Below, piece by piece: positions 29,121-31,292 of a DNA stretch of 64,000 nt. Positions within the stretch are counted from its first letter, which is position 1, and each line of letters opens with the position of its first letter. The notes under the pieces are model-generated. The model searched no databases. It was not told the DNA's origin and was given only the letters and a program-made list of their open reading frames with translations. Source of the stretch: Haloplanus sp. GDY1 (GTDB lineage: Archaea > Halobacteriota > Halobacteria > Halobacteriales > Haloferacaceae); the NCBI RefSeq assembly GCF_023703775.1, contig NZ_CP098514.1:1178001-1242000 (forward strand), read 5' to 3'. Both the position numbers and the translations under genes were made by a program.

Positions 29121-29906
29121 CTACTCGGGGAACAGCGGCGGCGCCACGCGCTCCCGTTCGAGGAGTTCGATCTCGTGGCCGTCCTGATCCGTCGTGAACG
29201 CGTACATGTCGTCACAGGAGGCGGGGTCGCGGTAGTCCGCCGCCTCGCGGACCATGAGTTGCTCCCAGTCGTCGTGCAGGTCGTCGACCCGGACACAGAG
29301 GTGACCCCACGCGTCGCCCATGTCGTAGCTCCGGCCGTCGTAGTTGTAGGTGAGTTCGACCGCCATCGCCTCCGGCGGCGCGTCCGAGGGTTCCGTGAAG
29401 TAGTTCGCGAAGGTGTCGGACTCCCACCGGCCGGCGGGGACGTGTTCGAACTTCCGGGTCCAGAAGCCGAGCGCCTCGTCGGCGTCCTCGACGCGGATCA
29501 TGGTGTGATCGAGGCTCCAGCGCGCCCCGTGGTCGCGCTCGACGATCTCCACCTCGTGGCCGTCCGGATCCGTCACGAAGGCGTAGCTCCCGCCACAGGA
29601 GTCGGGGTCGCGGTAGTCCTCGACGCCCGCCGCCATCAGTTCCTCGTAGGCGTCGTAGACGTCCTCGACGCGCACGGCGATGTGGCCCCACGCGTCGCCC
29701 ATGTCGTAGCTCCGGCCGTCGTGGTTGTGCGTGAGCTCCAGCATCGCCCCCGCCTCGTGCATGTCTTCGGGACCGAGGTAGACGTTGGTGAACGTGTCGG
29801 CCTCCCAGCGATCCTTCTCCTCGTAGCCGAGGTGTGACTGGTACCACGAAAGCGAGTCGTCGAGGTCCGAAACTCGCATCATGACGTGATCGAGGGTTCC
29901 GTCCAT
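29121..29906 (-). CDS. Two-domain VOC (glyoxalase/dioxygenase) protein
   Basis: A 261-residue protein made of two tandem VOC modules (about 1-125 and 131-255). Each has the glyoxalase I-like pattern LDHxMxRV, followed later by SYDMGDAWGHxxVRV and ending DGHEVEIVER or DGHEIELLER. His and Glu from both halves form a metal site. Lactoylglutathione lyase is the usual annotation; haloarchaea lack glutathione, so the substrate may be another thiol adduct or a dioxygenase substrate. The two modules are about half identical, pointing to a duplication. Confidence 0.88.
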   Translation of the reverse strand: MDGTLDHVMMRVSDLDDSLSWYQSHLGYEEKDRWEADTFTNVYLGPEDMHEAGAMLELTHNHDGRSYDMGDAWGHIAVRVEDVYDAYEELMAAGVEDYRDPDSCGGSYAFVTDPDGHEVEIVERDHGARWSLDHTMIRVEDADEALGFWTRKFEHVPAGRWESDTFANYFTEPSDAPPEAMAVELTYNYDGRSYDMGDAWGHLCVRVDDLHDDWEQLMVREAADYRDPASCDDMYAFTTDQDGHEIELLERERVAPPLFPE

Positions 29907-29970
29907 GGGCGAGGGGACGGCGGGGACGCCGAAAAACGTACCGCAAGCGGCGGTCCCTCGCCCCGGTCAG

Positions 29971-30798
29971 TTACCAGCGGCTCGCGGGGAACGGGATCGG
30001 GTCGCCGCCGACCGGCCACGGGTCGGGGCGCGGACCCGGCCACGGCCAGGGCCACGGCCACGGCGGCCACTCGTCGGGCGGGACGGTGAGCCCTCGCCGT
30101 GCCGTTGCGGCCCCGCTACCGGGTGTGAGCCGTCGCGGATCGACGGCGGCCATCCGCCGAGGCCCCCGGAGCGACGCCCAGCCGTCGTCGCGGCCGGCGC
30201 GGTCCATCGGCAGGGGCACCGGGTCCCCGTTGTCGGCGTACGGCCACGGACCCGGGCGCGGACCCGGTCCCGGCCAGGGCCACGGCCACGGCGGCCACTG
30301 CGGCGGCCACGGCCACGGATCCGGCGGGGGCGTGAGCCCCACCGGCGAGTCCGTGCGGAGGCTCGGCTGCGGGCTCGGATCGCCCCGATAGCCGACGGCC
30401 GGCCGCGACGTGCCGCCGGCGGGGCGGATCCCACCGCCGGACGACGACTCGACGTCGAGGAGGCCCTCCTCCTCGAGGTGCGAGAGGTACTCCTCACGGA
30501 TCTCGAGGAAGTCGGAGAGTCGGTCCCCGACGGCGGGCGGGGCGCCCAGCAGACAGATCGGGTCGTTCGGATGGTCCCGGCAGTACTCGACCCACTCCGC
30601 TTCCTCCCCGGGAATCGGCTGGAACACCGATCCGCCCCCGCCGACCAGGTTCTCCTCCTCCAGTCGGTCGAGGTACGCCCGCTGGGCGTCCTCGACGCGC
30701 TGGACCCAGTCGGCGCGCATCCGTCGGGATAGCTCCCGACGCTCCTCGGAGTCGAGCGCTTCCAGACGGTCGATCAGGTCGTCGATGTCGGCTCCCAT
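29971..30798 (-). CDS. Uncharacterised protein with two Trp-Pro-rich repeats
   Basis: A 275-residue protein with no family that I recognise. The N-terminal half is acidic and helical, with related segments around AYLDRLEEENL (41-51) and EYLSHLEEEGL (103-113) and two cysteines in WVEYCRDHPNDPICLLGAPP (69-88). The C-terminal half holds two similar Trp/Pro-rich blocks (about 155-197 and 238-271), each running LTxPPDxWP, alternating Trp-Pro, GPRP, PWP and GDP(V/I)P. The protein ends in SRW. There is no signal peptide. The ATG at 30798 follows an AT-rich island (30826-30850) suited to a promoter. The low-complexity blocks are in frame and duplicated, so selection or slippage shaped them. Confidence 0.7.
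   Translation of the reverse strand: MGADIDDLIDRLEALDSEERRELSRRMRADWVQRVEDAQRAYLDRLEEENLVGGGGSVFQPIPGEEAEWVEYCRDHPNDPICLLGAPPAVGDRLSDFLEIREEYLSHLEEEGLLDVESSSGGGIRPAGGTSRPAVGYRGDPSPQPSLRTDSPVGLTPPPDPWPWPPQWPPWPWPWPGPGPRPGPWPYADNGDPVPLPMDRAGRDDGWASLRGPRRMAAVDPRRLTPGSGAATARRGLTVPPDEWPPWPWPWPWPGPRPDPWPVGGDPIPFPASRW
29986..30336. repeat. Duplicated GC-rich blocks encoding Trp-Pro repeats
   Basis: Two DNA blocks (about 29986-30087 and 30208-30336) share a long near-identical core built from GGCCACGGCCAGGGCCACGG-like units. Each block also contains internal six- to twelve-base repeats. They encode the two Trp-Pro segments of the overlapping gene, so both the DNA and the protein are repetitive. Slippage-prone composition makes copy-number change likely. 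Confidence 0.65.
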
Positions 30799-30872
30799 CG
30801 AGTAGTCCCTCCGGGGAGAGTATTTGTCACTATCGATAATTAATGTTAATGATTCAACTGTTCGGCGCCGCG

Positions 30873-31292
30873 CTACCGGTACACCCACCACGCGACCGCC
30901 AGGCAGGCGACCGTTCCGAGCGGCCAGGCGGTGCGTCCGGGCTGGAACGCGAAGCCACGGGCGAGGGTCAGCTGCGCCACCCCGGCGGCGGCGAGGAGGC
31001 CGGCCGTCACGCGCGGGTCCTCGCGCCCCAGGGCGTACCCGCCCGCCGCGCTCGCGAGCGCGAGAAGGTAACTCCCGACCGAGAGCGGCCACGCCGTGAT
31101 GTAGGGCGGGAGGCCGCGCGTGTAGCGAAGGAGGAAGTCCCAGAGGAAGGTGACGGCGAACGGGTCGACGGTGACGAGCCCCCAGGCGAAGACGAACGTG
31201 GGTGGGCGAGCGCCCGCGAAGGTCTGGACCGACCACGGGACCGCGAGGAGCGCGAGGACGGCGAGCGGGTCGGCGGCCGAACGATCGGACAC
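30873..31292 (-). CDS. Haloarchaeal membrane protein (TIGR04206-like)
   Basis: A 139-residue protein with about four membrane helices (9-28, 34-52, 62-85 and 95-135), rich in Trp and Ala, with conserved-looking motifs VPWSVQT and AWPLSVGSYLLALASAAGG. It begins with GTG at 31292, one base after the stop of the GTPase gene, so the two are co-transcribed. I think it belongs to a haloarchaeal family of unknown function catalogued as TIGR04206, but the name is from memory. No catalytic residues are visible. Confidence 0.72.
   Translation of the reverse strand: MSDRSAADPLAVLALLAVPWSVQTFAGARPPTFVFAWGLVTVDPFAVTFLWDFLLRYTRGLPPYITAWPLSVGSYLLALASAAGGYALGREDPRVTAGLLAAAGVAQLTLARGFAFQPGRTAWPLGTVACLAVAWWVYR

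Follow-up and report, generated by a model that had tools for sequence, protein, structure and literature searches.

Gene content and layout of the locus

The window analyzed here, a stretch of 64,000 nucleotides from Haloplanus sp. GDY1, carries on its minus strand a gene of 275 codons (29971..30798; ATG at 30796-30798, TAA at 29971-29973) whose product includes 50 Pro and 17 Trp residues and is referred to as the Trp-Pro protein. The original prediction placed at these positions a novel protein with duplicated Trp-Pro-rich repeats and left the strand unstated; the observation was confirmed on the minus strand, and the orthologues begin at the same Met. The protein is indeed novel with regard to Pfam, NCBIfam, PHROGs and PADLOC, where it and its relatives obtained only chance-level matches. 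Sequence searches of solved structures returned nothing convincing, Rfam had no match for the gene, and a search covering a part of the literature found no paper on the protein.

The upstream neighbour encodes a membrane protein of the TIGR04206 family (30873..31292, minus strand; 155.1 bits against a cut-off of 90), and the downstream neighbour a two-domain glyoxalase-like protein (29121..29906, minus strand) recognized by a family match in two stretches. The TIGR04206 gene, labelled 'near_ArtA', adjoins a GTPase gene in the window and directly precedes the glyoxalase gene in six congeners. No partner gene co-occurs with the Trp-Pro gene, and the TIGR04206 neighbour is also present in genomes without it. 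Upstream of the gene, an AT-rich block, TAACATTAATTATCGATA (30831..30848, minus strand), is conserved in the four genomes that have the gene and is largely kept even ahead of the one decayed copy; it has a single match in the window at up to three mismatches, and none in 100 shuffles. This block is a probable promoter or operator; it exceeds the length of a plain TATA box and might serve other genes as an operator too. A Shine-Dalgarno-like GGAGG (30808..30812, minus strand) lies 9 nt before the ATG, and a similar GGAGG is found in the orthologues. On the other side, the element GGTACGTTTTTCGGC (29928..29942, minus strand), upstream of the glyoxalase gene, has counterparts in six empty sites and delimits the insertion.

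The first 118 residues (30445..30798, minus strand) form a head that is seen in alignments and predicted helices. As originally described, it is acidic, helical and repetitive and has two cysteines: two copies of a helix motif, the YLDRLEEENL region (30639..30679, minus strand; also seen in the alignments) and the EYLSHLEEEGLLDV region (30453..30493, minus strand), form a 41-nt direct repeat pair (D3) that is 71% identical, and C73 and C82 are the only Cys residues. The orthologues of G002 and G009 also have two Cys each. The tail includes the two Trp-Pro blocks that had been noted as closing in GDP(V/I)P, located at residues 154-197 (GLTPPPDPW...GDPVPLP; 30208..30339, minus strand) and 236-271 (GLTVPPDEW...GDPIPFP; 29986..30093, minus strand); both start with GLT-x-PPD-x-W and end with GDP(V/I)P(L/F)P, and at the DNA level they form an 86-nt direct repeat with 81% identity. 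Trp is followed by Pro at 13 of its 17 positions and the longest x-Pro run spans 16 residues; neither value was reached in 5000 composition shuffles. AlphaFold, run on the single sequence, predicted the tail as unstructured with low confidence, and the model of the whole protein (mean pLDDT 54) gave no structure for the Trp-Pro repeat.

Selection on the reading frame and turnover in the genus

The two intact orthologues are 79 and 82% identical to the window protein, and dN/dS for the three pairs of the whole gene was 0.27, 0.17 and 0.11, which bears out the idea that the protein is under selection. Purifying selection was strongest in block 1 (residues 157-197; 0.044, 0.035 and 0.071), where each pair shows 11-13 synonymous against 2-4 nonsynonymous changes. 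The values were 0.12, 0.27 and 0.06 in block 2 (residues 237-275), 0.23, 0.12 and 0.09 in the head, 0.46, 0.40 and 0.15 in the linker (residues 119-156), and 0.66, 0.27 and 0.20 in the middle segment (residues 198-236). Constraint is highest in block 1, so this segment does something specific. Both blocks are kept in all three intact genes, and the outcome that had been named as speaking against a protein, frame-shifted or variable repeats in relatives, does not apply to them: gaps between intact copies comprise whole codons, and the length differences correspond to one extra PW unit in block 1 of G002 and one extra PV unit in block 2 of G009.

One might suspect a mere DNA repeat, or an antisense shadow, that encodes no protein, given that the gene holds GC-rich repeats, with a 27-nt unit in seven copies, and that the copy of G006 is frameshifted. 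This explanation is very improbable, and for the intact copies it is refuted, by dN/dS values well below 1 and whole-codon gaps, by the joint conservation of the start, the upstream block and GGAGG, and by what was found in other genomes. The DNA pattern for PWPWPW occurs in 13 of 167 genomes of the taxonomic family and corresponds to the Trp-Pro gene in 3; the other 10 have one site each, an in-frame ORF of at least 60 residues exists at 3 of these 10, and in our judgement no site belongs to a convincing gene read in this frame. Trp is a costly residue, and among the 167 genomes scanned such a regular Trp-Pro alternation in a convincing gene is found only in this protein family. An ORF of 275 residues also runs antisense to the gene (29905-30732, plus strand); its Arg/Pro make-up, typical of antisense shadows, suggests that it only mirrors the GC-rich coding strand. 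There is hardly any doubt that the Trp-Pro gene is a real, selected protein-coding gene.

The genus set comprised 12 genomes, that of the window included. The gene is intact in 3 (G000, G002 and G009), decayed at the same site in 1 (G006) and absent from 8. Six of the latter (G001, G004, G005, G007, G008 and G010) show a clean empty site, with the neighbours 38-125 bp apart; in G011 the TIGR04206 gene is not in view at the locus, and G003 has no GTPase or TIGR04206 match within 1.5 kb upstream. The dS of the gene (0.49-0.76) is near that of the TIGR04206 gene (0.49-0.59) and of the glyoxalase gene (0.36-0.41), so the gene has probably been at this site since the species split. A tree of the neighbour genes from 11 genomes (G003 left out) requires at least two presence changes, with a weak key node (68/90); the tree of the glyoxalase alone was too poorly resolved for use. 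The blocks and the intact frame are missing from G006, but there the whole gene has decayed (L004:1501-2047): the frame is shifted and the second Cys is lost. This copy runs directly from the beginning of block 1 into the last part of block 2, with the intervening stretch gone, as if the two repeats had recombined. With genomes in which the gene is present, absent or decayed, the family offers clean material for work on the origin and loss of orphan genes.

Distant relatives and variable tails

Searches with a profile of the head added only three carriers, two in the same taxonomic family (G189 and G191) and one in another family (G274). The members counted as real were present in 6 of 170 family genomes, 4 of 392 order genomes, and 5 of 391 and 5 of 390 class genomes; these sets overlap, those of the class are drawn samples, and the counts omit weak rows that were not inspected (class rows with E of 0.01-0.1, G030, L010, L012, L014 and others). 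Among the weak matches that were looked at, that of G438 lies inside a GyrA-like ORF and was judged to be due to chance, as was that of G450, and L011 was rejected. Pattern scans yielded 426 and 34 stretches in genome contigs and 8, 75 and 13 in viral contigs, none of which was confirmed. Plasmid and phage records had no match, and no mobile element was identified.

The G274 locus holds the gene itself and a smaller paralogue, flanked by PurH and a membrane-protein gene. The latter has a match in 27 of 28 family genomes and PurH is upstream at 18 of 28 loci; besides the locus of G274 itself, none of the 28 compared loci has the gene or its paralogue upstream, and the sole other match, a weak one in L114, lies on the far side and on the opposite strand. 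The paralogue, AYCDEYPYDPLCRKF (L041:5817-6191, minus strand), forms a two-gene cassette with the G274 relative, whose 3' end it overlaps. In G189 and G191 the gene (L008:1372-1839, and L009:1423-1890 on the minus strand) is flanked by a small membrane-protein gene on one side and a large gene on the other, and it is missing there in G190 and G192; the dN/dS of this pair is 0.25. The gene is thus found at three sites, the genus locus and these two, and its placement suggests a lone gene that is gained and lost between core genes.

The head is the only part of the window protein that G189 and G191 share. Their tails are Gly-rich and hydrophobic, as in G189 (MVASGVGVGVAVGGNAGLV), and both have the conserved end ADDIINNPxIGPxAREFAxRMxF; the tail of G274 is rich in aromatic residues, Pro and Cys (DPWPWPDFCMLYPWFC...PDPFPFPDPIPRPGPRPDPVPF). 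The tails vary by member; of the three known lineages, two have an aromatic/Pro-rich one. Given that G189 and G191 have the head and no Trp-Pro tail, the head could carry out the function, with the tail as a stiff spacer or an arm for solubility in which residue identity is of little importance. This we consider unlikely, because constraint peaks in block 1 and is lower in the linker (0.15-0.46) and the middle segment (0.20-0.66). Swapped tails (Trp-Pro, Cys/aromatic-Pro, or Gly-rich hydrophobic) on a conserved head, together with the patchy presence of the gene and the fact that short disulfide loops often occur outside cells, would also suit an exported adhesin or a halocin-like peptide, in which the head would act as leader or carrier and the lineage-variable Trp-Pro tail would bind surfaces or membranes. 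Export is nevertheless doubtful: no hydrophobic signal stretch is visible by reading the N-terminus, the TIGR04206, glyoxalase and GTPase neighbours are not export or modification genes, and selection on the tail is strongly purifying and not diversifying.

A CP12-like cysteine loop and its possible role

In the alignments, the core of the family consists of two helix motifs of varying sequence, R..Y(L/I)..L.E.GL, that flank the loop C-R-(E/D)-H-P-x-D-P-(I/L/M)-C. In the window protein this loop reads C-R-D-H-P-N-D-P-I-C (residues 73-82; 30553..30582, minus strand). The original interpretation held as to novelty, in-frame repeats and selection, whereas the surface-binding or phase-forming role that it imagined is hypothetical; it fell short with regard to this loop, a family-wide C-x3-P-x4-C pattern that it had taken merely as a two-cysteine motif. 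The Cys pair and the Pro are invariant in the six head sequences of alignment A3 and also in the G274 paralogue. Among the 45 window ORFs and 268 locus ORFs that passed a gene-likeness filter, which left out the window gene itself, C-x3-P-x4-C is confined to family members; three copies are present in the G274 protein and one in its paralogue. AlphaFold, from the single sequence of the head (mean pLDDT 68), predicted helices at residues 5-13, 17-48, 66-75, 80-83 and 94-110, so that helices sit on either side of the loop. A fold search with this model gave nothing at E <0.001 and did not have CP12 among its results, and the best Z of a VIA-align comparison over nine chains was 3.1; given that the model is weak, neither outcome excludes any fold.

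The presence of His and Asp between the Cys residues makes metal binding possible, and His76 and Asp79 are invariant in the six rows of A3. In such a head, C73-x2-H76-x5-C82 and D79 would coordinate a metal such as zinc, and the tail would serve as a binding rod. This is rather improbable, since the position of the His is occupied by Tyr in the G274 paralogue and by Ala and Gln in the other G274 copies of the pattern; the residue that stays constant is Pro.

The G274 paralogue was also the source of the CP12 lead: it is the only family member with a score against the Pfam CP12 family (PF02672), at 12.4 bits and E 0.27, below the gathering cut-off of 22.7, and neither the window protein nor the six members of A3 gave a match. 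In the available part of the review PMC9406205 (also PMC3906501), the C-terminal Cys pair of CP12 is defined as CxxxPxxxxC, and this end interacts with GAPDH. The window protein has this motif (C73...P77...C82), and actual CP12 chains read EEYCKDNPETNECR and QAYCEANPDALECR at the loop. When two CP12 stretches were compared by hhalign with A3, which does not include the G274 paralogue and is therefore a test on other sequences, exactly the loop was aligned (19 columns, P 0.0007, probability 26%); with A5 the probability was 20%. None of 150 column shuffles in each of three schemes reached the real score, although in the scheme that kept the Cys and Pro columns in place the top shuffle nearly did (22.0 against 22.4). 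The AWD_VEEL core of CP12 is absent from the window protein and its relatives, as judged by reading and by hhalign, which aligns the loop alone, and an N-terminal Cys pair, which some CP12s can lack, is absent from the window protein and from those of G002 and G009; hence, by its defining features, the family is not CP12. A likeness of only 19 columns is compatible with descent and with convergence alike. By analogy, the loop may work like that of CP12. A candidate source on salt-lake CP12, PMC8506154, was set aside because its available part concerns cyanophage CP12 only.

From these data we tentatively propose, as the most likely of the readings considered, that the Trp-Pro protein is an accessory, cytoplasmic protein of some haloarchaea that acts in binding or as a scaffold under redox control. 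In an oxidising environment, C73 and C82 would form a disulfide that closes a short loop at Pro77, as in the C-terminus of CP12; the closed loop would fix the helix-loop-helix, and the head would then bind a partner or itself. Each Trp-Pro block would be an extended, polyproline-II-like rod with Trp at every second residue, and the two rods of a chain could make multivalent hydrophobic contacts favoured by strong salt. The absence of the second Cys from the decayed G006 copy counts in favour of this proposal; the change of the tail between members, with a Gly-rich one in G189 and G191, counts against it. A more specific version is quite unlikely: an archaeal redox switch, with a CP12 loop acquired outside photosynthetic lineages by descent or convergence, that would bind a dehydrogenase, for example a GAPDH of bacterial type, while the Trp-Pro tail drives complex assembly in molar salt. 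If the CP12-like loop were a working redox switch, a mode of regulation of photosynthetic organisms would exist in heterotrophic archaea.

Among known systems, two resemble the tail. The linker of TonB is an x-Pro repeat rod in which x is Glu or Lys; Pro likewise occupies every second residue in the Trp-Pro blocks, for which an extended rod is expected, whereas x is Trp and there is no TonB domain. Indolicidin is a Trp/Pro-rich antimicrobial peptide in which Trp and Pro also alternate; in contrast to this short, cationic and secreted peptide, the Trp-Pro repeat is the tail of a protein with an acidic head and without a visible signal. With CP12 (PF02672) the family shares a small and flexible protein, the C-x8-C pair and the Pro four residues past the first Cys, usually with Tyr before. 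Unlike CP12, the Trp-Pro protein has neither the core nor a second Cys pair, carries the loop internally instead of at the C-terminus, adds helix repeats and a Trp-Pro tail, and belongs to a presumably non-photosynthetic archaeon, whereas CP12 regulates GAPDH and PRK in photosynthetic organisms. The available part of PMC9406205 describes CP12-like C-terminal ends grafted on other proteins, GAPDH B and ADK3; the Trp-Pro protein resembles them in carrying a CxxxPxxxxC loop on an unrelated protein, and differs in that their loop extends the C-terminus of an enzyme, while the Trp-Pro protein is no known enzyme.
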